Shown piece by piece: positions 3,448 to 59,334 of a DNA stretch of 64,000 nt (position 1 is its first letter; every line of letters begins with the position of its first letter). Source of the DNA: an uncultured Eggerthellaceae bacterium (GTDB lineage: Bacteria > Actinomycetota > Coriobacteriia > Coriobacteriales > Eggerthellaceae). The translations under genes and the position numbers were made by a program. The stretch lies in NCBI GenBank assembly GCA_947650915.1, contig CANSWY010000001.1:62001-126000 (forward strand), read 5' to 3'. The notes below the pieces were generated by a model that searched no databases, had not been told where the DNA came from, and saw nothing but the letters and a program-made list of their open reading frames with translations.

Positions 3448-4061
3448 TGGCGTACCGGACGGTGGAGGGTGCCGTTGAGGCGGAAGTGGTGGAGAAGAAG
3501 TCCCGCTTCATCGCGCATCTGGCCCACGTGGAAACGGAAGAGGAAGCTCTGGCCTTTCTGGATGGAGTGAGGTCAGAGAACCAGCAAGCGCGCCACAACG
3601 TCTATGCCTATCTCCTGCGTAGCGGGCGCACGCGTTACTCCGATGATGGGGAGCCTGCGCAAACCTCAGGCATGCCCACGTTCCAGGTGCTGGAACGTGC
3701 GGGCTTGGCGGACGTCATCTGCGTCACCACGCGGTATTTCGGGGGCGTGCTCTTGGGCACGGGCGGCTTGGTGCGCGCCTACACCCAAGCGGCTCAAGCG
3801 GCGCTCGCCATCGCGCGCATCGTGTCAGTGGAGCGCTGCGTGGACATCAGCGTGAGCGTGCCTTACCCCGAACACGATGCAGTGGTGCGCCGCATCCAGG
3901 AAGCCGGAGCGCGGGTGCAAGGGTCTGCTTATTCAGATAAGGTGCAGCTGGATGTGCGCGTGCTGGAAGCCGACGCGGATGCGCTCATGCGCGCCCTCAC
4001 CGAAGCCTCCCGTGGCCAAGCCGCCTTGGAAGCCACCGCTCCCTTCGACGCGCCCTTCTGA
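3447..4061 (+). CDS. YigZ/IMPACT family protein
   Basis: This 204-aa protein has the IMPACT-family core: an N-terminal KKSRFIAHLAHVETEEEALAFL segment, then RYSDDGEPAQTSGMP and TTRYFGGVLLGTGGLVRAYTQAAQAAL, followed by a C-terminal DUF1949-like domain. The family is linked to translation factors and stress, but the biochemical role in bacteria is not settled. The ATG overlaps the pth stop codon by one base, so it is the last gene of the glmU-prs-pth unit. The ORF ends shortly before a large inverted repeat that may act as its 3' boundary. Confidence 0.92.
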   Translation: MAYRTVEGAVEAEVVEKKSRFIAHLAHVETEEEALAFLDGVRSENQQARHNVYAYLLRSGRTRYSDDGEPAQTSGMPTFQVLERAGLADVICVTTRYFGGVLLGTGGLVRAYTQAAQAALAIARIVSVERCVDISVSVPYPEHDAVVRRIQEAGARVQGSAYSDKVQLDVRVLEADADALMRALTEASRGQAALEATAPFDAPF

Positions 4062-4975: not shown

Positions 4976-6187
4976 TCAGCGCAGGTTGTAGGGCTTCACC
5001 GTCTTCGGCATCCCGTCCGATCCGTAGATGATGGCGGGCTCTCCAGCCACCAACGGGCGGAAGTAATCAAGAGCCTCTTCGGTCACGCCAAGGTACCCGG
5101 GGCGGATCCAGTCCTCAGGGAAGGCTTTCACGTAGTTCGCGAACTCTGCGGCGGGACCGGCGAAGTATTCGGCATTGTAAGCGCCCGCGTTCGTTCGACC
5201 GCGCTTCACGCCCACCACTTGGGCGGTGAACGCAGGGTCGGCGGAGCGCATGTGCGCGGTAAGGCCCAGCTCATATGCTTCCGTCACGTCCACCTTCGAT
5301 TGCGCGAAGTTCGAAGAGCGGGCCGCGCGCGAAAGGTCCTGCACCACGCCGCGCGGGGCGATGCCCGCATCCACGATCATCTGCTTCAGCGTGAGGGCGG
5401 CTCCTCCCAGCACAGCGTGCGCGAAGCCGTCGTTGGCGCTCTCGCCGGCGGACAGGTACGTGCCATCAGCGTAGCGCGCCCCTTCGCTCACCACGATGTA
5501 GCAGGAACCTTGATCGTCCATCTTCTGCTGCACGCAAGCGAGGAACTCATCGCGCTGGAAGCTGATCTCAGGCAGCACCAGAAGGTCCACATCCCCGGAC
5601 AGGCAGCAGCTGGCTGCCAGCCATCCGGCGTCCCGCCCCATGGTTTCCAGCACGAAGACCTCCGGGCGCGTGTAGGCGTCGTAATCCAGCTTGGTGGCGT
5701 GGCATACCAAGTTCGCCAGCTTCGCGGCCGAAGGGAACCCCGGGCAATGGTCTGGGGGGACCAGATCGTTGTCCACTGTCTTCGGGATGCCGATGAAGCG
5801 CTTGCTGGAACCGGCAGCGGCTGCCCATTCCGAGAGCGCATCCACGGTGTCCATGGAATCATTGCCGCCGATGTAGAAGAACGTGTCCACATCATGTTCG
5901 TCCATCACTTCGAGGAGACGCGTGAAATCAGCGTCTTGACCGCGCTTCAGCTTGTAGCGGCAGGTGCCCAGAGCGGATGAGGGCGTCTGCTTGAGGATCT
6001 CCAGTTCATCTCCAGGCACCTCTGTCAGGTCATAAAGGGAACCGGCCAGCACGCCCTCTATGCCATGGATGCCGCCCAGCACGCGCTGGTAGAGAGGGTT
6101 CAGTTGGTTCGCTCTGATGACGCCGGCCAAAGAGGCGTTGATGACGGCGGTCGGTCCGCCCGATTGCGCTACGAGACAGTTCCCCAT
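4976..6187 (-). CDS. Phosphofructokinase, probably pyrophosphate-dependent
   Basis: A 403-aa glycolytic enzyme that phosphorylates fructose-6-phosphate. Features of the PPi-using clade are PKTVDNDL (Lys instead of the Gly of ATP enzymes) and GGNDSMDT, where Asp replaces the Gly that makes room for ATP. The N-terminal loop AQSGGPTAVINASLAG and the substrate loop ETMGRDAGWLAA are also present. I chose the ATG at 6187 because GGAG sits upstream and the protein then begins at the nucleotide-binding strand; the frame itself is open to 6211. PPi dependence is inferred from motifs only. Confidence 0.92.
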   Translation of the reverse strand: MGNCLVAQSGGPTAVINASLAGVIRANQLNPLYQRVLGGIHGIEGVLAGSLYDLTEVPGDELEILKQTPSSALGTCRYKLKRGQDADFTRLLEVMDEHDVDTFFYIGGNDSMDTVDALSEWAAAAGSSKRFIGIPKTVDNDLVPPDHCPGFPSAAKLANLVCHATKLDYDAYTRPEVFVLETMGRDAGWLAASCCLSGDVDLLVLPEISFQRDEFLACVQQKMDDQGSCYIVVSEGARYADGTYLSAGESANDGFAHAVLGGAALTLKQMIVDAGIAPRGVVQDLSRAARSSNFAQSKVDVTEAYELGLTAHMRSADPAFTAQVVGVKRGRTNAGAYNAEYFAGPAAEFANYVKAFPEDWIRPGYLGVTEEALDYFRPLVAGEPAIIYGSDGMPKTVKPYNLR

Positions 6188-6368
6188 GGGTTCGCTCCTT
6201 CTCCCTCTCATCGGTCACGGTTTTTGCGATTATAGGCGGTGCGCTGCAGATGCTGGACGCGATCTGCGAGCGTTCATCATTCCGTTTTTCATGTGATGTC
6301 CCGCGCGCGTTCGGCATCTGTGCGAAAATGAAACGAAAAGGATTCGAGAGGCACAAGAGGCTCATCTG

Positions 6369-9300
6369 ATGACGACTCGTTTCAGGATGCGCGCATGCGC
6401 TCCGGATGCTGTGGCGCGCATATGCCAGGCGCATCCCATGCCCGGGTTCATGGCGCGCACGCTCGCGAACAGGGGCATCCAGACGCCGGAGGCTGTGGAG
6501 GCGTTCTTGCACCCGTCGCTTGCGCGCGATTGGCTGAATCCCTATGACCTGCCGGACATGGAACGCATCGCAAGCCAGCTCTGTCAAGCAATCGATGATC
6601 AGCAACACATCGTCGTGTTCGGTGATTTCGACTTGGATGGCATCTCGGCCACCACGGTGCTCACGCGCGGTCTGCGCCAGGTGGGCGCGCGCGTCACGCC
6701 CTTCATCCCGAAACGTGCCGAAGAGGGTTACGGCCTCACGCTGGCTGCGTTCGAACGCCTGCGCCCGCTGGGTCCTGATCTGATCATCACTGTGGACTGC
6801 GGGATCGCCTGCAAGGACGAGGTGGCCGCCATCCAGGAGGCTGGCATCCAGGTCATCGTGACGGATCACCACGAAGCGGGAGACCTGGTTCCCGAAGGCA
6901 TCCCGGTGTGCGATCCGAAGGCGGTGCCCGGACATCCCTCAGCCGTGCTCGCAGGCGTGGGCGTGGCGCTCAAGGTGGTGCAAGCGGTGGGGGGACGCCG
7001 TGGATATCCCCATCTGTGGCGCGAATACACCGATCTGGCCACGTTGGGCACCGTGGCCGATCTCATGCCCATGGTCGGAGAGAACCGCGCGCTGGTCTCT
7101 GATGGCCTTGAGCGTTTGAATGCGGCACCGCGGCCCTGCATAGCTGCTCTCATAGGTTGTGCGAAGCCGGATGGGAAGCCCCTCACGTCCACGAACTTGA
7201 GCTTCTCGCTCATACCGCGGCTCAATGCAGCGGGCCGGATGGGGGATGCTGACTGCGCGCTGGACCTCTTGATGACGGATGACTACGATGAGGCCTGCGC
7301 GCTGGCTGCCAAGCTGGAAGGGATCAACGACAGTCGCCGCGAGACGGAGGCAGAGGTGGCTGAGGCCGCTAAAGCGCAGGCTGCGCAGAAGCATGTGGGC
7401 GGCCGATCCATCGTGGTGTCTGGAGAGGGCTGGCATGAAGGCGTTAAGGGCATCGTGGCCTCGCGACTGGTGGGCGTCTATCACGTGCCCGCCATGTTGT
7501 TCTCCATCGTGGATGGGGAAGCGCGTGGATCGGGCCGTTCCTATGGCGGCGTGAACCTGTTCCAGGCGGTGGAGAGCGCTTCAAGCCTGCTCACCCGTTT
7601 CGGAGGCCATGGGGCGGCCGTGGGCGTCACGCTTCCTGCAGAGAACCTCCCTGCGTTCGAGCGCGCGCTGGAAGAGCACATGCAGTCTCTTCCCGCTGAG
7701 CAGTTCGAGAGCCGCGTGGATGTGGATGCGGAAGTGCGCTTGGCTGACCTCACGTTGGAGAACGTGGCGCAGCTGGAGCAGTTGGCTCCGTTCGGCCAGG
7801 AGGCGCCGGAGCCGCGCTTTCTGGTTCGCAACGTCTCTCTTGCGAACGGAAGAGCCGTGGGCGCGAGCAAGAATCATTTTTCTTTTCAGCTGAGCGATGG
7901 CCGCACGAACGTGTCCGCCATCATGTTCAACTGTGCGGATCTGGATGCTTATCTTGCCAGTGACCGCTTGGCTGACGTGGCTTTCACGGTTCAGGTGGAT
8001 GAATGGCGCGGCCGCAAGAGCGTGAAGGCCATGGTGGACGCCATTGCGCCGGCCAGGCCGTGCGCTGCCTTGCGCGACATGATGGATCCGCGCGTGGCGG
8101 AATTCTTCGATGAGCTGTTCGATGCGTGCGATGGCGGAGAAGTGGCGGTCATGGACCGCACGGCCATGAGCGCTGACGCTGCACAGGAGAACGGAGACCT
8201 CCTGTGTGCCCGTGAAGGGTGGGAGCGTCTTGCGCGCGAAGACCCAGCGGCGCTGGAGCGTGAATTGGTGGCCGCCATCATCGGCACCCGCAGCCTCCAC
8301 CCAGCGCAAGCAGAGATCCTGCGGCGCTTGAAGAGCGGCCAGTCCACTTTGGGCATCATGGCCACAGGGCGCGGCAAATCGCTCGTGTTCCAAGTGCATG
8401 CCGCACTGTTGGCCCTGGGATCCGGCAAGGCCAGCCTTTTCGTCTATCCGTTGCGCGCGCTCATGGCTGATCAGGCATTCCATCTTGAGCGCCAGTTCGC
8501 TCGGTTCGGATTGGTGTGCCGCGTGTTGAACGGGGAATGCAGCCAGCGGGAGCGCGAAGAGACCTACGCGGGCCTGGCGGACGGTTCGGTGGACATCGTC
8601 ATGACCACACCTGAATACCTCTCATTCCACGCCGATCGCATCTCTCAGTGCGGGCGCATCGGGTTCATGGTGGTGGATGAGGCGCATCACATCGGGCAGG
8701 CGAAGGCAGGCCAACGCCCGGCCTATGCGCACCTGGGAGATGTGGTGGGCAAGCTGGGCGCGCCCACGGTCCTGGCGCTCACAGCCACGGCCCCGGCGGA
8801 GGTGGCGCGGGCTGCCATGGCGGCGCTCTCCATCCGTGAGCGCGTGGTGGATGACGCCAGCCGTGACAACCTGCACGTGGATGATCAGCGCAACATCCGC
8901 GGGCGCGATGATTATCTGGCCCACATCGTGGCCAGTGGCGGCAAATGCGTCATCTATGTGAACTCCCGCGAACAGTCCGTGGGCGTGGCGCGCCGTCTGC
9001 GCCGCCGCGTGCCCCAGCTGGCGCTCCAGATCGGTTTCTACAACGCCGCGCTCTCGCGCGATGAGCGCAAGCGCATCGAAGACCTGTTCCGGACGGGCCA
9101 GATGCAGGTGCTGGTAGCCACGTCCGCGTTCGGTGAAGGGATAGACATCCCTGACATCCGCCATGTGGTGCTCTACCACATGCCGTTCTCCGACGTGGAA
9201 TTCAACCAGATGAGCGGGCGTGCGGGCCGGGACGGCCAGGATGCATGGGTGCATCTGCTGTACGGCCGCGCTGACGTTTCGATCAATGAGGGCATCTTGG

Positions 9301-9719: not shown

Positions 9720-12007
9720 CGGGCAAGGCAGAAGCATTGGCGAAGTTCAAGACGCCGGATGAGGCGTTCGCGGAGCTGGATGAGCTTTCCGGCGGGTACA
9801 TGACCGCGCAAGAGCGGGACATGCTCACGCGCGCGTTCCGGTTCGCCTCTGCCGCCCATGAGGGCCAGAAGCGCAAATCCGGTGAGCCGTTCATCGTCCA
9901 CCCCATTGAAGTGGCCATCATCCTGGCCGATCTGCGCATGGATGCCGAAACGGTGTGCGCGGCGCTCCTCCATGACACCGTGGAGGACACGGAGGTCACC
10001 GCAGAAGTGGTGGAAGAGGAGTTCGGTCCGGATGTGCGCCAGCTGGTGGAAGGTGTCACGAAGATCACGCGCATCGAGGTGGAATCCCTCTCAGATGAAC
10101 AGGCGGCCACCATCCGCAAGATGCTCGTGGCCATGAGCAAGGACATCCGGGTCATCGTCATCAAGCTGGCCGACCGCCTTCATAACATGCGCACGCTGGC
10201 ATCGCTGCGCGAAGATAGGCGCATCTTCAAATCCCGCGAGACGTTGGACATCTATGCTCCCATCGCGCACCGTTTGGGCATCAATTCCATCAAGTGGGAG
10301 CTGGAGGACCTGGCGTTCTTCTACTTGGAGCCGAACAAGTACAAGCAGGTCAGCCGCATGGTGACGGACACGCGCGCGGAGCGGGAGGAATACCTCTCCA
10401 ACGTGGTGGACATCATTGAGGCCGAAATGGAGAAGGTGGGCGTGGACGCGAAGGTGATGGGGCGCCCGAAGCACCTGTATTCCATCTATCAGAAGATGTC
10501 GAAGAAGGGCAAGGGCTTCTCTGAGATCTACGACCTCATCGCCGTGCGCATCATCGTGCCTTCGGTGAAGGATTGCTATTCGGCGCTGGGCGCGGTGCAC
10601 ACGCTCTGGCACCCCATGCCCGGGCGTTTCAAAGACTACATCGCCATGCCGAAGTACAACATGTACCAGTCCCTCCACACCACGGTGATGGGGCCGGCGG
10701 GGCGCCCCTTGGAAGTGCAGATCCGCACCGAAGAGATGCACCGGGCCAGTGAATACGGGGTTGCCGCGCATTGGCGCTACAAGGAGGGTGGCGGCAAAGT
10801 CAGTTCGGATGAGTTGGACAAGCAGCTGGCATGGCTGAGGGAGATGGTGGACTGGCAGGATGACACGGAGGATTCGCGCGAGTTCCTGAAGTCCCTCAAG
10901 ATGGATCTGGACAACGCGGAGGTGTACGTTTTCACGCCGAACGGGGACGTGAAGACGCTGCGTGCAGGTGCCACGCCGGTGGATTTCGCCTACGCCGTGC
11001 ACACGGAGGTGGGGAACCACTGCGTGGGCGCGAAAGTGAACGGCTCCATCGTGCCGCTCACCTATGAGCTGAAGGTGGGCGACCGCGTGGAGGTGCTCAC
11101 TTCCAAGAACGCCTCGCCTTCGCGCGACTGGCTGAACATCGTGCAGACGCCTTCTGCTCGCAACAAGATCCGCAGCTACTTCTCCAAAGTGACGCGTTCC
11201 ACTGACTTGCAGGACGGCCGTGACATGCTGATGCGCGAGCTGCGCAAGCATGGGATCGGCTTGTCCTCGGCTCGCACGGGCAAGGCGCTCAAGGGCGTGT
11301 CTGAAGCCATGGGATTCGCTGACACTGATGACATGTACGTGCAGCTGGCGCGCGGCAAGGAGAGCGCGCAGCATGTGGCGAACCGCCTGCTGAAGATCCT
11401 GGTGGATTCTGCGAACGCAGAGGCGGAGAAGCCGCGCGTGGGCGCTGGCGAGGGATCAACGGGCATCATGGCGCCCATGCTCACCAGCGTGAAAGGCCAC
11501 AAGCGGCATGAGACGCATTCGTCCAACGGCATCGTGGTGAAAGGCGTGGATGACATCCTGGTGCGCCTGTCGCGCTGCTGCAACCCGGTGCCGGGCGATG
11601 AGATCGTCGGCTTCGTGACGCGGGGGCGCGGCGTCAGCGTGCATCGGGCAGATTGTCCGAATGCGGATGACCTGCGCCGCAACCCCGAGCGCATCATCGA
11701 AGTGCAATGGGAGGGCACGCCTTCTGCCTCCGCGCTCTACAAGATAGAGATCTACGTGGAAGCGCTCGACCGCATGAACCTTTTGCTGGATGTCACGCGC
11801 GTGTTGTCAGAGGTGGGCGCGAACGTCATCTCCTGCACCACCAACACCCATCGCGATGGTGTGGTGGAGATGCGCTTCCTCTTCGAAGTGGGGGACATCA
11901 CCAAGATAGAGAACGCGATAGAGGGTCTGAAAGAGATAGATGGCGTGTTCGATGCGCGGCGGATGCTGCCGGGAGAGGCAGTGGGCGCTGCGAAGGGAGG
12001 ACAGTGA
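9716..12007 (+). CDS. rel: Bifunctional (p)ppGpp synthetase/hydrolase
   Basis: A 763-aa RelA/SpoT homologue that controls the stringent response. In order: HD hydrolase domain (HPIEVAIILADLRMD, LLHDTVEDTE, KLADRLHNMRTL), synthetase domain (YNMYQSLHTTVMGP), TGS domain (VYVFTPNGDVKTLRAGATPVDFAYAVH), a Cys-rich region (RLSRCCNPVPGDEIVGFVTRGRGVSVHR) and a C-terminal ACT domain. An intact HD box and an intact synthetase loop suggest both activities. It overlaps the recJ-recQ fusion by 4 bp and is followed 1 bp later by a metallo-hydrolase gene. Confidence 0.97.
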   Translation: MTGKAEALAKFKTPDEAFAELDELSGGYMTAQERDMLTRAFRFASAAHEGQKRKSGEPFIVHPIEVAIILADLRMDAETVCAALLHDTVEDTEVTAEVVEEEFGPDVRQLVEGVTKITRIEVESLSDEQAATIRKMLVAMSKDIRVIVIKLADRLHNMRTLASLREDRRIFKSRETLDIYAPIAHRLGINSIKWELEDLAFFYLEPNKYKQVSRMVTDTRAEREEYLSNVVDIIEAEMEKVGVDAKVMGRPKHLYSIYQKMSKKGKGFSEIYDLIAVRIIVPSVKDCYSALGAVHTLWHPMPGRFKDYIAMPKYNMYQSLHTTVMGPAGRPLEVQIRTEEMHRASEYGVAAHWRYKEGGGKVSSDELDKQLAWLREMVDWQDDTEDSREFLKSLKMDLDNAEVYVFTPNGDVKTLRAGATPVDFAYAVHTEVGNHCVGAKVNGSIVPLTYELKVGDRVEVLTSKNASPSRDWLNIVQTPSARNKIRSYFSKVTRSTDLQDGRDMLMRELRKHGIGLSSARTGKALKGVSEAMGFADTDDMYVQLARGKESAQHVANRLLKILVDSANAEAEKPRVGAGEGSTGIMAPMLTSVKGHKRHETHSSNGIVVKGVDDILVRLSRCCNPVPGDEIVGFVTRGRGVSVHRADCPNADDLRRNPERIIEVQWEGTPSASALYKIEIYVEALDRMNLLLDVTRVLSEVGANVISCTTNTHRDGVVEMRFLFEVGDITKIENAIEGLKEIDGVFDARRMLPGEAVGAAKGGQ

Positions 12008-51826: not shown

Positions 51827-51839
51827 ATCAGCTCCAAAA

Positions 51840-52036
51840 AAGGGATGTCCCGAATCGCACATGGATGTGCAGAAGGGACGTCCCGAATTGGATGTGCAGA
51901 AAAAATGTGCATAAGGGACGTCCCAAATTGCACATAGGAACAGTCTTTCAGTGCGCGACCTTCCTCCTATGTGCGATTTGGAACGTCCCTTATGCACATT
52001 TTTCTGTTGCGCGCGCTTTCGGGCGCTCCTTCTGCA
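51840..52036. repeat. GGGACGTCCC-core compound inverted repeat, copy 3
   Basis: Main arms at 51901-51939 and 51965-52003 (39 bp each) match with two differences, again GGGACGTCCC on the left and GGAACGTCCC on the right. Two degenerate half copies precede (51840-51900) and one follows (52026-52036). It fills the start of the 413-bp gap 51827-52239 after aroF; the rest of that gap holds the left recombination arm and a minus-strand promoter-like sequence. Confidence 0.88.
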
Positions 52037-52066
52037 CATTCACTTGAGGCGCACCGGTGGATTTTG

Positions 52067-52086
52067 CGGCGAAATCAGCATTTCGT
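52067..52086 (+). repeat. Left inverted-repeat arm (recombination site candidate)
   Basis: Begins CGGCGAAATC and ends GCATTTCGT; contains the dyad CGAAAT/ATTTCG around CAGC. Confidence 0.75.
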
Positions 52087-52147
52087 TCCTTTGAGCCGCG
52101 TTCTGATGCGTTTTCCGCCCATGAAAGGGGAGAGAATCATCTGCAAC

Positions 52148-52176
52148 AGTCTAAGCCATCCCCTGGTCGTTTGCAA
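52148..52176 (-). promoter_or_regulatory. Outward-facing promoter-like sequence inside the segment
   Basis: On the minus strand TTGCAA and TAGACT are 17 bp apart. In the present orientation it points left towards the repeat after aroF, where no gene follows. After inversion between the arms its start point would lie near position 53087 and face the adhesin gene. The match to consensus is moderate (4/6 and 4/6). Confidence 0.4.
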
Positions 52177-52239
52177 TGACGCCCGAGCGCATCCGTGATG
52201 GTGAGGGGCTGAAGGACCATATGCGAACAAGGGGGATCG

Positions 52240-53082
52240 ATGGGGTATTTGATCACAGAGCGGCTCCTGCAGAAATACGCAGACCATCTGCGGAGCATCG
52301 ATCGGAGCGAGGGAACCATACAGAAGTACTGCCGGGATGCTCGCAACGCAGCCCGCTGGCTGGAAGGTCGTCCGGTCACTGCTGCCCTTCTCGCTCAGTG
52401 GCGCGATGGGCTCATAGAGGGCGGCTACGCTGCTGTGACCGTGAATTCCATGGTGTCAGCGGTCAATGGGCTTTCAGGGTACGCGGGGCACCAGGAAGCC
52501 AGGATCCGGTTCTTGAGGGTGCAGCGTTGTTTGTTCCGAGATGATGAGAAGCAGCTCACCCTTGCAGAATATGAACGGCTGGTGCGCACTGCTCGCGCGT
52601 TGGGGCGCACTCGTTCGGCGCTGGTGGTGGAAGCGCTGGCCTCGACGGGCATGCGCGTGTCCGAGGTGCGCTTCCTCACTTGTGAAGCCCTGCGACGTGG
52701 GCGCGTGGACATCAGGCTCAAAGGCAAAGTGCGCACGATCCTCCTGCCTGAGGATTTGTGCGTGCGTCTGGAACGGTACCGTTCATGCCACAAGATGATC
52801 TCTGGCCCCATCTTCCGTACTGAATCTGGGCGCCCCCTTTCGCGCAGACAGATCTGGAGAGATATGAAGGCGCTCTGCGGCCCAGCCCGTGTCGAGCCAT
52901 CGAAAGTCTTCCCACACAACCTGCGCCATCTTTTCGCCACGGTCTTCTATCAAGCCTGCCATGACTTGGCGGGATTGGCGGACGTCTTGGGCCATTCCTG
53001 CCTTGAGACCACGCGCATCTACTTGAAGGTGCCAAAGAACATCCATGCAGCTCGGATCAATGGACTCCCGCTTCTGATCTGA
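52240..53082 (+). CDS. Tyrosine recombinase (integrase/invertase family)
   Basis: A 280-aa XerC/D-like recombinase with an N-terminal SAM-like DNA-binding domain (LLQKYADHLRSIDRSEGTIQKY) and a catalytic domain. Catalytic residues seen: Arg in STGMRVSEVR, Lys in LKGKVRTI, HNLRH, the second His in GHSCLETTR, and the nucleophile Tyr in TRIYLK. GGGGGA precedes the ATG. It stands alone, with no excisionase, phage or plasmid genes, and is enclosed by inverted repeats 153 bp before and 59 bp after. This suggests a dedicated DNA invertase. Confidence 0.92.
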   Translation: MGYLITERLLQKYADHLRSIDRSEGTIQKYCRDARNAARWLEGRPVTAALLAQWRDGLIEGGYAAVTVNSMVSAVNGLSGYAGHQEARIRFLRVQRCLFRDDEKQLTLAEYERLVRTARALGRTRSALVVEALASTGMRVSEVRFLTCEALRRGRVDIRLKGKVRTILLPEDLCVRLERYRSCHKMISGPIFRTESGRPLSRRQIWRDMKALCGPARVEPSKVFPHNLRHLFATVFYQACHDLAGLADVLGHSCLETTRIYLKVPKNIHAARINGLPLLI

Positions 53083-53141
53083 TGTGCCCCTCGCGGCTCT
53101 TTTCGGGCAGCCGTTCTAGGTGTCATGTCGCTCTCGGAGCG

Positions 53142-53161
53142 ACGAAATGCTGATTTTGCCG
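53142..53161 (-). repeat. Right inverted-repeat arm (recombination site candidate)
   Basis: Reads ACGAAATGCTG...TTTTGCCG, the inverse of the left arm except one base. It contains an ATG (53147) with GGAG 7 bp upstream in the present orientation; after inversion AAGGA would lie 5 bp upstream instead. Confidence 0.75.
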
Positions 53162-53229: not shown

Positions 53230-56200
53230 ATGGGAAGAAGCGGCATTCGACCAGCGGCCATTCCAGCAACGCATCCGTTGAGGATCAGAAAGAAGCGGAC
53301 ACGCCTGCTGCAACGCATCTTCACGATGGCCCTTGCCATGCTCCTTGTCTGTCCGGCATCGGCATTCGCGGCCGTCGATGCGGGTGGAGCGGATCTGCCA
53401 GCTGAAGGCGCTCCCTCCCAAGGGTCTGACGGTCCTGGCTCTTTTGATGAAGGGACGCACGGCGCTGATGAAGGAGCGTCGGATGGCGGTCAAGACGCAG
53501 ATGATGCGCTGGGTGATGACCTCTCCCAGGCAGGAACGCCTTCAGATGAGGGATCTGATGGATCAGAGGATGCGACAGATGGGGAGCCAGTCGACGAGGA
53601 CGGCATCGCCCCTCGATCCATCGATCTGAATGATCCCGCGAATGCTTCGATCCTGGCAAGCCATGTGGTCGAAGGCCTCAATCCCCCGAACACCACGATC
53701 AACCTCTTCGACTACGACACTGGCAGGCGAGGGGGCGAGGCGATCGATGGCGTGGCGAACGTGCCGGGGAGCAATTCCATCACAGCGGGAACCGATACGC
53801 TGGGATTCACCGGTTCACGGAGCGCAGCTGACAATTACCGGGTGTGGCTCGATGATCCCGATGGCATCAACTACGGCCGCTTGTTGACCTTCGGTGATGG
53901 CATGCGTCACATGGGCTACTGGAATCAAGGGCTCGTGAAGGCGTATGGGTCCTTCGCGAACCGCAATCCTGGGATGCAGAACATCGTCATGTCCACTTTG
54001 GTGGATGGATTCCCTTGCTTGAGCGATGCGGTCAACCCTTCTTCCTATCCGTCATGGTTGCAGACCGGTGACTATGATGCTCACACGCAACTGTACGCGG
54101 ATGCGCGGCGCGACAACGGTTCGCTCATCTACGACGTGGCCGGAGACAAGAACATCTCTAACGGCGTGCAATATCTGGCGGTCGATCCAGGCGATGTCGC
54201 TGGTGCTCCAGCGAACGCGGCCTCAGGTGGAGGCCAGGATCTCAGCGAGGATGCCCGATCCCTTTCCTATCTTTTCGACCCTGATGAGCACGCTGCGGGA
54301 AAGGTGGCTAGCCACACGGACGTGAACGGCCTGTTCCAGATCGATGACAAGGGCTACTACTATTACAACATGCGCGACAACTATGCGTGGTATGACGAGT
54401 CGTCCAACAGCTTCGTGCTCTATGACCAGCCGGCCGGTCTGCGCACTGATGCTCCGGCTGGGAGCACTGATACGCGTCTGACCACAGGCAACTTCTTCCC
54501 GTTCAATTCTCCCGCTGATGCGTTCTCGATCACTGCGGACGGGCAGTTGGTGAACGCCCTGAATGCGAACAACGACAAGACGCAGAACAGCGCTCCGGTG
54601 AATCATCATCTCGGCCTCACGGTGCAGACCGATTTCCGTCAGCCCGTGAACGGCACGGTCGGGTCCGAGCCCATGACCTTCGAATTCATCGGCGATGACG
54701 ATCTGTGGGTGTTCATCGATGATGTGCTGGTGCTCGACATCGGGGGCATCCACTCCGAGCTTTTCGGCACCATCGATTTCTCTACCGGAGAGGTGCGCGT
54801 GGGCACCGCGTTCGACAGCGGCGGCAAGCCCACCATCAATGATGACAACATCGTCACGTCCATCAAGGAGATGTTCGAGGTGGCGGGCGTGGATACCAGC
54901 ACCGGCTTCACCGGGAACACGTTCGCCTCCAACACCTCTCACACGCTCAAGATGTTCTATCTGGAGCGCGGCAATTACGATTCTTCGCTGGCCATGCGCT
55001 TCAATCTGCAACCTGAGCTCTTCCAGCAGATCAAGAAGGTCGATCAGGATGGGGAGCCCGTGTCGGGTGCGGCTTTCGATCTGTATGCCGTCGATGCCAC
55101 GAGCGCCTCTGATGTCGCTTCCGCCACGCTTGATGATGTGACGGAAGGGGGTCTGCTCACCTCATTGGTCACGGACAGCGACGGGACCGCGCGCTTCATG
55201 GATGGCTCGAATCCTTTCAATTTCGCGGACCGCGTCACTGATGAGGCCTCAAGCCAGCTCTATATCCTCAAGGAGACGAGCGCGCCTGCGGGGTACCGGA
55301 TGATGCCCGTGCCGCTCCTTTTGCGCTATGACCGGGAAACGGGCACGTTCATCGTGAACAATCGTTACGAGACCGGGTCATATGCCAGCTTCAACAGCTA
55401 TGTGAACCAGATCTCCAATGAGAGCCTCACCTTCGGTGCGTATGACCCGGACACGGGGCACATCGCGGCCACCGATGCGCGCGTTCCTCTCGATCAGCAG
55501 GGGGGCGGCTTGGTGGTGGCTGTGCCCACCATCAAGCAGAGCGCAGCGTCGCAGGATCGATGGGAGCCCCTCTACGGCAGCAACAACCAGAAACTGGAGA
55601 CCATCGTCTACGATCCGACGGATGTGCATGCGATGCGTGACGCCATGTTGCGCGCCGTGCTGCAGCAAGCGTATTTGAGCTCCGAAGACGATGCGGTGCC
55701 AGGATGGTATCTGACGTGGAACGCCGCTGAGAGGCGGATGCGCTCATACCATACCGAACACGGTCCTGATGGGGACCGGGTGGTCTGCACGCTCTCCGAC
55801 CTTCCGGGAACGCCTTCGCGCTATATCCTGAACAACCCTGACGGGGACATGCAGATGGTCTACGGCATCCTGAGCAAGGAGGTCTTCGGGGCTGACGGTG
55901 CGAACATGACCTCGGCCCAGAAGTATGCTCATCTGGCGGAACTCGTGAAGGCGCAGCTCGTCGGGATAGATGACCCTTCTCCGGAGCAAGTGCAGGCAGC
56001 GGTCTCGTCGGTGGCTGCGACCATCGGCGCGCAGACCACCTCAGGCGCTGGAGGGGTTCACGCGACGCGTGGCTTCAATGCGATCGACACGAGTGATGGG
56101 ACTCAATTCGAGCGAAATTTCCGAACCGTGATCAACATGCCCAACGAGCAGCGTGAGTTGCGCGTATGGAAGGTCGATCAACACGGAAAGCGGGTGAATG

Positions 56201-59200
56201 GAGCAGTGTTCGCTCTGTTCGAGAGCGCCTCCGATGCTGCCTCCGCGTCGGATGCTGAGGTGGATGGGCAAGATGTCGTCACGCGCGTCACTGCTGCGAA
56301 TGGATCGGTGCTCCATCCGGTGGCTGCTGGCGTCACGGGCGATCTCACCGGCGCGCACACCAAATACCAAGGCGATGACCTTGAGGGAATGCTCATCTTT
56401 GCTCCGTATGTGGACGATGGGCCAGGTGGTGCGCATACCACCTGGAACCAGGGGGATGACAGCAACAACGGCAAGGTTCTCTATCTCAAAGAGGTGAAGG
56501 CTCCCACCGGTTTCGAGGCGAACGACACCGTCATCACGGTGGTGATCGGGCAGTACGGGATCTACGCTGATGCGGGCAACGAATTCGATGGCGTGGATGT
56601 CCTGGCCGGTGTGGGCAAACTGGCCACCACGATGAGCAAGTATGCGGCTTCCCCCAACGTGAACCTCACCCTGAGGTACATCATCTCCACGTGGCAATCG
56701 CAGCAAAGCGGCGTGGTGCCCTCCGGAGCCACCAGCATCCCATTCGAAGACTTCAATCAGGGCTGGACCTCAGATGCGTCGAATCAGATTGATCTGACCT
56801 ATGGGAAGAATGCCATCATCGATTACGGCTCGGAGCAGCCATTCACAGAAGAGCAGCTGGCGGCCGGCGTCGGGTACGTGGACGCGAAGGGAAGAGAGCG
56901 GCCGTTGTTCTGCGCGACATCGGGTTTCGTGCGCACGCAGGTGACGCAGGACACGGATGCGATGCTCGCTGCACAAGCAGGCGAATATCCCGGCGTCAAT
57001 GGGGATGCCTTGCGGGGTCAAGACCTCACCAACCTCTTCATGATCCGCAATACCGTCAAGGTGACGGATACGCGCCATGCGGCCCCTCAGATCAAGAAGG
57101 TGGATCAGGACGGAGATTCAGTCGCGGGGGCCGTCTTCGAGCTCTATCCCGTGGATGCGCCAGCGGGCATGGACGAGGCGGCGCTTGCAGAGGCGACGTT
57201 GACAGATGTGCAGGGCGGCATCGCTTCTGCACCCCTTGCTCGGTTGGTGACCGATGGCACGGGAACCGCTGAGTTCTCTGAATTGGGCGCAGATGGCCAG
57301 CCCACGGGTTCGTTGGTCGATTTCCCTGTCCGAGCGGTGGACAAAGGGCTTAAAGGGGGAAGGCTGTATGTGCTCCGGGAGGCGCAGGCTCCCCCCGGAT
57401 ACCGCGCATTGCTCACCGATCTGCTCTTGCGCTTTGAACCGACCACCAGCATGCTCATAGTGAACGACCGCTATGACACGGGTGCGAGCGGCAGTTTCGC
57501 ATCGTTCGTCGCAGTCGATTCTGACATCCATTACGGTTCATACGCAGACGGATCCGTCTCGCCCCAAGCTGACATCGTCAGCCCTCAAGTGCAACAAGAA
57601 GGCTTGATCGTGGCTGTTCCACTGGTCAAGAGCGATGACAGCTGGCTTCCGCTCCATGGAGATGTGACGGGTGGATACACCGCGTCCAGCGGCACTGATG
57701 AGCGCGCCATCTTCGAGGCGGCTCTACTCCAGGCGGCATCTGGTAAGAGTCCGTGGCATCTCGACTGGAACGATTCCATCAGCGCGCTGTCGGGATATCT
57801 TGAGGGGCTTCCCGGAACGGCAGACCGGTATCGCCTGAAGAATCCGGACGGCGACATGCAGATGGTGTATCTCTGCATCAGCCCGGAGGCCTTGGGCAAA
57901 GTGGGCGTTGGGGGCATCGGCGACAGCGCTCGGCGTTACGAGGCCCTCGGCGCTGCATGCGCCTCCGATGTCTCTTCTGCGCTCGCTCAGATGATGGCGG
58001 TCCCGAACGGCGTGCGCATCATCGATTCATCTGACCTCGATCGCAACTTCCAAGCGCTCGTCTACATCCCGAATGGCGTGCGCCAGCTGAGGCTATGGAA
58101 GGTGGACCAAGAAGGCGGAAGGCTGGATGGCGCGGTGTTCGCTTTGTTCGAAGACGCTGCTGACGCTGAGCGGGCTTGTTCGGCCACCGTGGACGGAGGT
58201 GCGGTGACGCGCATCCAGGATGCGAACGGCTCGCCCGTCGCCGCGTTCGCGTCCGGCGTGACCGGGGTCTCGGGCGCTGATGATCCGGTGGGATCCCAGC
58301 ACGGCTCGCTCGTGTTCGCGCCGGATGTGGATGACGGGCCAGGGAGCGCGCACACCATGTGGATCGATTCTGACGGAAAGGATCTGATGGGCCGGATCCT
58401 TTATCTGAAAGAGGTGAAAGCTCCTGACCATTATCTGGCGAATGAGACGGTCATTCCTGTCGTCATCGGACGTTATGGCATCTATGTCGATGCGGGAAGC
58501 GCAGAAGATGGCGTGGATGCGCTCGCGGGCGCAGGTGCGCTGGCAGCTCCTTTGCGCAAGCTCGCCTCATCGCCAGAAGTGAACCTCACGTTGCGCTATC
58601 TCCTTTCTGCAGCCCAGGTGCAAGACAGCCTTGCCCTTGATGGCGGTGATGATCGCATAGATGGAGGCTCGGTGGATTTCGATGCGTTCGATCAGGCGTG
58701 GCGATCCTCGTACTTGGCAGGCGATGACGCTGCACAGAAACTGATGCACCTCGTGTATGGACGATCGAATGCACTGGTGGATTATGGAACGGAGCAGCCG
58801 TTCACCGAAGAAGAGCTGATGGATGGCGTGGGCTATGTCGATGCGCAAGGCGTCGAGCGTCCGTTGTTCACCACGTCGGAGGGTTTCATTCGCACGCGCC
58901 TTGAGCAGGATGGAGATGCGCTCCGTGCTGCGCAGGCATCAGGTCCTTACGCGGGCGTGCAGGCGGATGAGCTTGGTGACAAGGATCTCACGCCGCTGTT
59001 CATGATCGAGAACACGGTGCGCGTGATCGATCTTCCGGATCCCGACGATCCGCCTGGTCCTGGTCCGGATCCTGGCACGGACCCGGATGGGCCTGGGAAC
59101 CCGGGCCAGCCGTCGGGCACGCCACAGGGCACTTCATTCCCCGACACGGGCGATCGCATGGGCGGTGCATTGCTGGCGCTCGCAGTCTTGATCGCGCTGG

Positions 59201-59334
59201 CTGGCGCTGCGCTCATCGTCGACCGCACGATGATGCGTGCGATGCAGCAGAATGCGCTCTTCACGGGAAGGCCTTCCGCTGGTGCCCACGTGCGCAAGGG
59301 CAAGAGGACGGACAGGCCGCATTTCCGCAGATGA
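53230..59334 (+). CDS. Large cell-wall-anchored adhesin (fibro-slime and SpaA/CnaB-like domains)
   Basis: About 2,034 aa. A signal peptide (RIRKKRTRLLQRIF...ASAFA) ends near residue 47. An acidic region follows, then a fibro-slime/PA14-like domain (about 215-590; FIGDDDLWVFIDDVLVLDIGGIH). From residue 599 two tandem units of about 650-690 aa each hold two SpaA/CnaB-like domains (starts near 599, 977, 1286, 1618; KKVDQDG, LKETSAPAGY, LKEVKAPTGF), which usually form isopeptide bonds. A Pro/Gly/Asp-rich wall spacer, the sorting motif FPDTG (1970-1974), a membrane helix and an unusually long basic tail end it. Start uncertain: ATG 53125, 53167, 53230 or TTG 53278; the last gives a textbook 31-residue signal peptide. 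Confidence 0.88.
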   Translation: MGRSGIRPAAIPATHPLRIRKKRTRLLQRIFTMALAMLLVCPASAFAAVDAGGADLPAEGAPSQGSDGPGSFDEGTHGADEGASDGGQDADDALGDDLSQAGTPSDEGSDGSEDATDGEPVDEDGIAPRSIDLNDPANASILASHVVEGLNPPNTTINLFDYDTGRRGGEAIDGVANVPGSNSITAGTDTLGFTGSRSAADNYRVWLDDPDGINYGRLLTFGDGMRHMGYWNQGLVKAYGSFANRNPGMQNIVMSTLVDGFPCLSDAVNPSSYPSWLQTGDYDAHTQLYADARRDNGSLIYDVAGDKNISNGVQYLAVDPGDVAGAPANAASGGGQDLSEDARSLSYLFDPDEHAAGKVASHTDVNGLFQIDDKGYYYYNMRDNYAWYDESSNSFVLYDQPAGLRTDAPAGSTDTRLTTGNFFPFNSPADAFSITADGQLVNALNANNDKTQNSAPVNHHLGLTVQTDFRQPVNGTVGSEPMTFEFIGDDDLWVFIDDVLVLDIGGIHSELFGTIDFSTGEVRVGTAFDSGGKPTINDDNIVTSIKEMFEVAGVDTSTGFTGNTFASNTSHTLKMFYLERGNYDSSLAMRFNLQPELFQQIKKVDQDGEPVSGAAFDLYAVDATSASDVASATLDDVTEGGLLTSLVTDSDGTARFMDGSNPFNFADRVTDEASSQLYILKETSAPAGYRMMPVPLLLRYDRETGTFIVNNRYETGSYASFNSYVNQISNESLTFGAYDPDTGHIAATDARVPLDQQGGGLVVAVPTIKQSAASQDRWEPLYGSNNQKLETIVYDPTDVHAMRDAMLRAVLQQAYLSSEDDAVPGWYLTWNAAERRMRSYHTEHGPDGDRVVCTLSDLPGTPSRYILNNPDGDMQMVYGILSKEVFGADGANMTSAQKYAHLAELVKAQLVGIDDPSPEQVQAAVSSVAATIGAQTTSGAGGVHATRGFNAIDTSDGTQFERNFRTVINMPNEQRELRVWKVDQHGKRVNGAVFALFESASDAASASDAEVDGQDVVTRVTAANGSVLHPVAAGVTGDLTGAHTKYQGDDLEGMLIFAPYVDDGPGGAHTTWNQGDDSNNGKVLYLKEVKAPTGFEANDTVITVVIGQYGIYADAGNEFDGVDVLAGVGKLATTMSKYAASPNVNLTLRYIISTWQSQQSGVVPSGATSIPFEDFNQGWTSDASNQIDLTYGKNAIIDYGSEQPFTEEQLAAGVGYVDAKGRERPLFCATSGFVRTQVTQDTDAMLAAQAGEYPGVNGDALRGQDLTNLFMIRNTVKVTDTRHAAPQIKKVDQDGDSVAGAVFELYPVDAPAGMDEAALAEATLTDVQGGIASAPLARLVTDGTGTAEFSELGADGQPTGSLVDFPVRAVDKGLKGGRLYVLREAQAPPGYRALLTDLLLRFEPTTSMLIVNDRYDTGASGSFASFVAVDSDIHYGSYADGSVSPQADIVSPQVQQEGLIVAVPLVKSDDSWLPLHGDVTGGYTASSGTDERAIFEAALLQAASGKSPWHLDWNDSISALSGYLEGLPGTADRYRLKNPDGDMQMVYLCISPEALGKVGVGGIGDSARRYEALGAACASDVSSALAQMMAVPNGVRIIDSSDLDRNFQALVYIPNGVRQLRLWKVDQEGGRLDGAVFALFEDAADAERACSATVDGGAVTRIQDANGSPVAAFASGVTGVSGADDPVGSQHGSLVFAPDVDDGPGSAHTMWIDSDGKDLMGRILYLKEVKAPDHYLANETVIPVVIGRYGIYVDAGSAEDGVDALAGAGALAAPLRKLASSPEVNLTLRYLLSAAQVQDSLALDGGDDRIDGGSVDFDAFDQAWRSSYLAGDDAAQKLMHLVYGRSNALVDYGTEQPFTEEELMDGVGYVDAQGVERPLFTTSEGFIRTRLEQDGDALRAAQASGPYAGVQADELGDKDLTPLFMIENTVRVIDLPDPDDPPGPGPDPGTDPDGPGNPGQPSGTPQGTSFPDTGDRMGGALLALAVLIALAGAALIVDRTMMRAMQQNALFTGRPSAGAHVRKGKRTDRPHFRR

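Follow-up and report, generated by a model that had tools for sequence, protein, structure and literature searches.

Does the segment preceding the gene of a large adhesin in the window (the whole 64-kb stretch of DNA analysed) act as an inversion switch that encodes its own invertase, as the first-pass annotation had proposed, or do its inverted ends mark something else? Invertible promoters beside a recombinase gene are a classic arrangement. Surface-protein phase variation has been studied well in Bacteroides, Clostridioides and enterobacteria, whereas little work has been done on it in Coriobacteriia; a description of the present promoter-switch family in Coriobacteriia was not found in the literature, the coverage of which was incomplete. 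The analysis makes it likely that the locus is a site-specific inversion (phase-variation) switch for the adhesin, in which a promoter would drive the adhesin gene after the flip. Switches of this kind are already known; what is new, as judged by sequence comparison, is the position of the enzyme gene inside the flipping segment, as against outside it in all 15 clear relatives found. The features of the locus are compiled in Table 1.

Table 1. Features of the recombinase-adhesin locus, in window coordinates.
Feature	Position	Strand	Remarks
Left recombination site (arm)	52067..52086	+	Partial dyad with asymmetric centre CAGC; dyad consensus common to relatives' sites
Right recombination site (arm)	53142..53161	-	59 bp past the recombinase stop, where relatives usually have their first site
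Predicted invertible segment of 1,095 bp with the recombinase gene inside	52067..53161		Prediction based on the arms, whose asymmetric cores are identical and inverted, and on comparison with relatives
Promoter-like TTGCAA-17-TAGACT	52148..52176	-	Points away from the adhesin as assembled; weak by plain consensus
Tyrosine recombinase gene, 280 aa	52240..53082	+	Phage_integrase match; R139, K161/K163, H226, R229, H252, Y261
Large surface protein, 2,034 aa, predicted target gene	53230..59334	+	Fibro-slime and SpaA domains; SpaH/EbpB pilin model; FPDTG anchor

Recombination sites and recombinase of the window

The left arm (CGGCGAAATCAGCATTTCGT, plus strand) and the right arm (CGGCAAAATCAGCATTTCGT, minus strand) differ at one of 20 positions; with more mismatches allowed, the match can be lengthened to 29 nt with 83% identity (52067-52095 and 53133-53161). 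The asymmetric core AAATGCTGATTT is the same in both inverted arms, as in the site pair of an inverton, and each arm holds a partial dyad around a non-palindromic centre (ACGAAAT-GCTG-ATTTTGC). Exact matches to the degenerate site number two in the 1.98-Mb assembly, namely both arms, and no further copy was detected there within two mismatches, the next best having three; the chance expectation for such sites in the 64-kb window is 0.02. An inverted pair matching at 19 of 20 positions appeared in none of 2,000 dinucleotide shuffles of the 1.4-kb region, and the arm pair is not a product of chance. A second canonical site was searched for between the recombinase and the adhesin and not found, and the viral contigs contained no exact match to the site. 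The first-pass description of the arms, as partial dyads with an asymmetric centre that enclose a single complete tyrosine recombinase gene, is thus borne out by the sequence, in which the pair is unique at the level of the assembly.

The sole gene between the arms encodes a protein matching Pfam Phage_integrase (7e-23), in which all catalytic residues (Table 1) are present. It is Xer-like and scores under the cut-offs of the XerA/C/D models, and its closest structures are XerD and XerC-like. The domain, the catalytic residues and a dyad common to the sites of the enzyme's relatives together indicate an intact, cognate tyrosine recombinase.

Related recombinases and their switches

Relatives of the recombinase were sought in 138 family, 398 class and 397 order genomes (overlapping sets), in one genome-contig scan, which returned a single relative, and in plasmid and phage records; all those found show roughly 30-56% identity. 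Recombinases located just before inverted-repeat-flanked segments, in Coriobacteriia and Clostridia, are 38-53% identical to that of the window. The 15 clear loci (L031, L046-L050, L056, L068-L071 and L100-L103) have inverted site pairs matching at 18-20 of 20 positions and enclosing 207-346 bp, with the pair starting anywhere from a small overlap with the end of the recombinase gene to 75 bp past its stop. Diverged site pairs occupy the same place in L045 (16/20) and L067 (14/20). With a few departures, the relatives' sites follow the dyad NACRNAAT-N4-ATTNYGTN, and the dyad of the window is common to them: the site reads AACGAAAT-ACAC-ATTTTGTA in L031 (a Clostridia genome), AACGAAAT-GTTG-TTTTTGTC in L100 (a Pusillibacter plasmid) and GACGAAAT-GCTG-ATTTTGCC in the window. 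The genes downstream of these switches encode mostly surface proteins of VWA, Cna_B, FctA, SLH or LPXTG types, and those of L031 resemble, by eye, a polysaccharide locus. Because 15 relatives show the sites, the segments and the surface or polysaccharide loci, the recombinase family can be tied to NACRNAAT-N4-ATTNYGTN sites and promoter-sized invertible segments.

Several of the related loci have peculiarities of their own. Three sites, not two, occur at L102:5872-6176 and L100:6833-7140, so that inversions there could be nested or alternative, or deletions could arise. L031 has two related recombinase genes that point the same way (6099-6941 and 9989-10843); they are about 3 kb apart, near one switch and the polysaccharide-like locus. 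The recombinase gene of L055 is truncated, while that of L066, the closest relative in the genome searches (56%), appears frameshifted near the catalytic tyrosine, and no sites were seen there. The recombinases of L052 and L054 form a separate clade; inverted repeats of hsdS-like coding sequence lie on either side of them, an arrangement that recalls type I restriction shufflons. Finally, L045 at first resembled the enclosed layout of the window because of GGTGCCTGGCACC palindromes at -63 and +888; it was rejected as a second locus with the recombinase inside, as these palindromes are also present at other places on the contig and both of its dyad sites are downstream.

The layout of the window is different: its left arm lies ~153 bp upstream of the recombinase gene instead of both sites following it. 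Such an enclosed recombinase was found in the window only, all 15 clear relatives having theirs outside the segment. In the phylogenetic tree, the recombinase falls in the same clade as the canonical ones and is nested among them (support 100/99), on a long branch (1.03) and with L100 as its nearest neighbour (53% identity). Since it is nested in this way, the enclosed layout is probably derived.

Orientation of the segments and the candidate promoter

L046 and L047 have inner segments that align directly with each other (score 38, matched in none of 1,000 shuffles). That of L048, by contrast, aligns better with L046 when inverted (27, against 14 direct; a score reached in two of 1,000 shuffles); its alignment with L047, again inverted, is less clear (23.5, against 18 direct; reached in ten of 1,000 shuffles). 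The best promoter in all three segments is TTGCAA-17-CATAAT, which points towards the surface locus in L046 and L047 but in the opposite direction in L048. This difference is natural evidence for the inversion of segments of this kind, although the opposite orientations were seen only between related species, at homologous loci. Wider DNA similarity of the window segment to the segments of the relatives was not significant in any case.

In these same three loci, a c-di-GMP-I riboswitch (RF01051, 45-58 bits) was identified at L046:8991-9083 (+), L047:7230-7323 (-) and L048:8703-8796 (+). As it starts a few bases after the invertible promoter segment, switch and riboswitch would be arranged in series before the surface locus; in C. 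difficile cmrRST the riboswitch is located upstream of the inverton instead (PMC8844915). The leader of the window gave no Rfam match to such a riboswitch.

The promoter-like element of the window matches the consensus at only 8 of 12 positions, for which reason a plain consensus scan misses it; by PWM, it reaches p = 0.03 against shuffles of its own segment. Its TTGCAA -35 hexamer and 17-nt spacing recur in the invertible segments of three relatives, and the joint TTGCAA-17 motif, which was written knowing the window's hexamer, occurs once in the 64-kb window and in one of 20,000 shuffles of the region. The first-pass claim of a promoter now facing away from the adhesin stands in part: the element is present on the minus strand, with a hexamer and spacing found in three relatives, but it is weak by consensus. 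Its role as a promoter is plausible, and its activity, like the OFF state of the assembled orientation, is a prediction.

The adhesin gene and its genomic setting

The adhesin scores above the cut-off of the model for LPXTG-anchored SpaH/EbpB pilins, and FPDTG followed by a hydrophobic stretch is found at its C-terminal end. Its open frame extends back to an in-frame ATG at 53125, inside the segment; judging by where its secretion signal lies, 53230 or a later position is the more likely start. Because the secretion signal sits well downstream of the right arm, inversion would probably leave the protein unaltered. The right arm ends just 68 bp before the adhesin start, and no consensus promoter was found in this interval.

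The sole other genome of the genus (G001) has aroF and pcrA, 88-89% identical to those of the window, ~30 bp apart (L096, near base 3863, reverse strand) and without the recombinase-adhesin block; recombinase segment and adhesin thus make up an extra block here, or one lost in G001. Homologues of the adhesin with ~40-64% identity occur in eight family genomes, and neither a recombinase nor repeats were found in their available upstream sequence (up to 1.5 kb), so that the pairing of switch and adhesin is not fixed. The earlier suggestion that the switch travels as one unit is thus supported only in part: it agrees with the absence of the whole block between aroF and pcrA in G001, but the adhesin homologues lack a switch and the enclosed layout was found in the window alone. 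The 209 bp after aroF (51832-52040) consist of a palindromic intergenic repeat of the TGTGCATAAGGGACGTCCC type, to which more than 40 places across the 2-Mb genome are related. No phage match was obtained for the DNA upstream of the recombinase.

Proposed mechanism and alternative explanations

In the mechanism that we propose, the recombinase would act on the two 20-bp sites and invert the 1,095-bp segment between them, its own gene included. The candidate promoter near the left end (52176-52148, minus strand), which as assembled faces away from the adhesin, would be placed by inversion 150 bp upstream of the ATG at 53230 and would drive the adhesin gene from there. Since the recombinase gene's own promoter should also be within the segment, the enzyme is expected to be produced whichever way the segment lies. 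Inversion of this copy, activity of its promoter and the OFF state of the assembled orientation are all inferred. The proposal of a switch for the adhesin, made in the first-pass annotation, gains support from the 15 clear loci, which agree with the window in recombinase family, kind of site, the place of such a site behind the recombinase gene and the surface locus that follows, as well as from the opposite orientations observed between species.

A real switch might also have been captured in its ON state, with the adhesin expressed by read-through from the recombinase gene and turned off by inversion. The two genes lie on one strand, 147 bp apart, with no terminator-like site found between them on that strand, and the promoter facing away is weak by consensus; against this, the relatives carry their promoter in the small segment and not in the recombinase gene, and the shared TTGCAA-17 element of the window points away from the adhesin, which leaves the read-through explanation rather unlikely. 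Still less probable is a former switch whose copy in the window no longer inverts. This could be conceived because the recombinase is on a long branch, because in several near relatives the sites are diverged or missing (L044, L045, L066 and L067) or the gene is broken, and because the layout is unlike that of all relatives; however, the arms still match at 19 of 20 positions with identical cores, and the open reading frame and its catalytic residues are intact.

As for a small mobile element with the arms as its terminal inverted repeats, inverted ends around one recombinase gene do resemble one, and the genome of the same genus lacks the region. However, what G001 lacks comprises the adhesin as well, and the ends of that block therefore do not coincide with the arms. 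The first-pass annotation had itself named homologous elements with the same inverted-repeat ends, inserted at unrelated sites, as the finding that would speak for such an element: the genome contains a single copy, and no relative is bounded by such ends, the relatives' sites flanking the neighbouring promoter segment and not the recombinase. On these two grounds the mobile element, to which the viral contigs also offered no exact site match, was discarded as highly improbable.

Comparison with known systems

The window and the 15 relatives agree in recombinase family and dyad site; in all of them a site follows the recombinase gene at the same place, with a surface locus further downstream. 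They differ in that both sites of the relatives lie downstream of the recombinase and enclose 207-346 bp, whereas in the window one site is upstream and the gene is inside a segment of 1,095 bp. The link between this recombinase clade and NACRNAAT-N4-ATTNYGTN makes such switches findable by sequence in many gut bacteria, and the comparison points to genomes in which ON and OFF states could be measured. By function, the proposed switch is like E. coli fimS/FimB and C. difficile RecV, in which a tyrosine recombinase flips a promoter segment between inverted repeats and thereby switches surface structures.

The tyrosine recombinase PsrA, which inverts DNA between short inverted repeats in vitro (PMC7096588), is a distant sequence relative of the window recombinase (29.8% identity to a plasmid psrA). 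It exchanges coding parts of type I restriction hsdS genes, whereas the segment of the window would move a promoter before an adhesin; the hsdS-associated recombinases of L052 and L054 belong to a clade separate from that of the window. In Eggerthella lenta, a 2026 preprint describes inversions of 1.9-2.0 Mbp at a 16-bp repeat, with no recombinase beside the breakpoints (PMC13174815). They resemble the present case as inversions at short inverted repeats that affect the cell surface in the same bacterial class, and differ from it in the repeat, the megabase scale and the lack of a neighbouring recombinase.

The invertible H segment of Salmonella is ~1 kb long and carries the promoter of the adjacent surface-structure gene. 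The gene of its invertase, Hin, lies inside the segment (PMC5903667), and the window likewise has a recombinase gene within a predicted invertible segment of ~1 kb beside a surface-structure gene. The window would work like Hin without being a member of that system: Hin belongs to the serine recombinases and has an enhancer and Fis, while the enzyme of the window is a tyrosine recombinase. Tentatively, the locus may be regarded as a tyrosine-recombinase counterpart of Hin, namely an adhesin switch in which the enzyme gene and the promoter would invert together and the orientation would set the direction of recombinase transcription. Were this the case, one state would direct recombinase transcripts towards the adhesin and the other in the opposite direction, and switching could be coupled to the state of the adhesin, in a family that otherwise keeps its enzyme outside the segment; the enclosed layout would thus allow testing whether an enzyme gene inside the segment alters switching behaviour.
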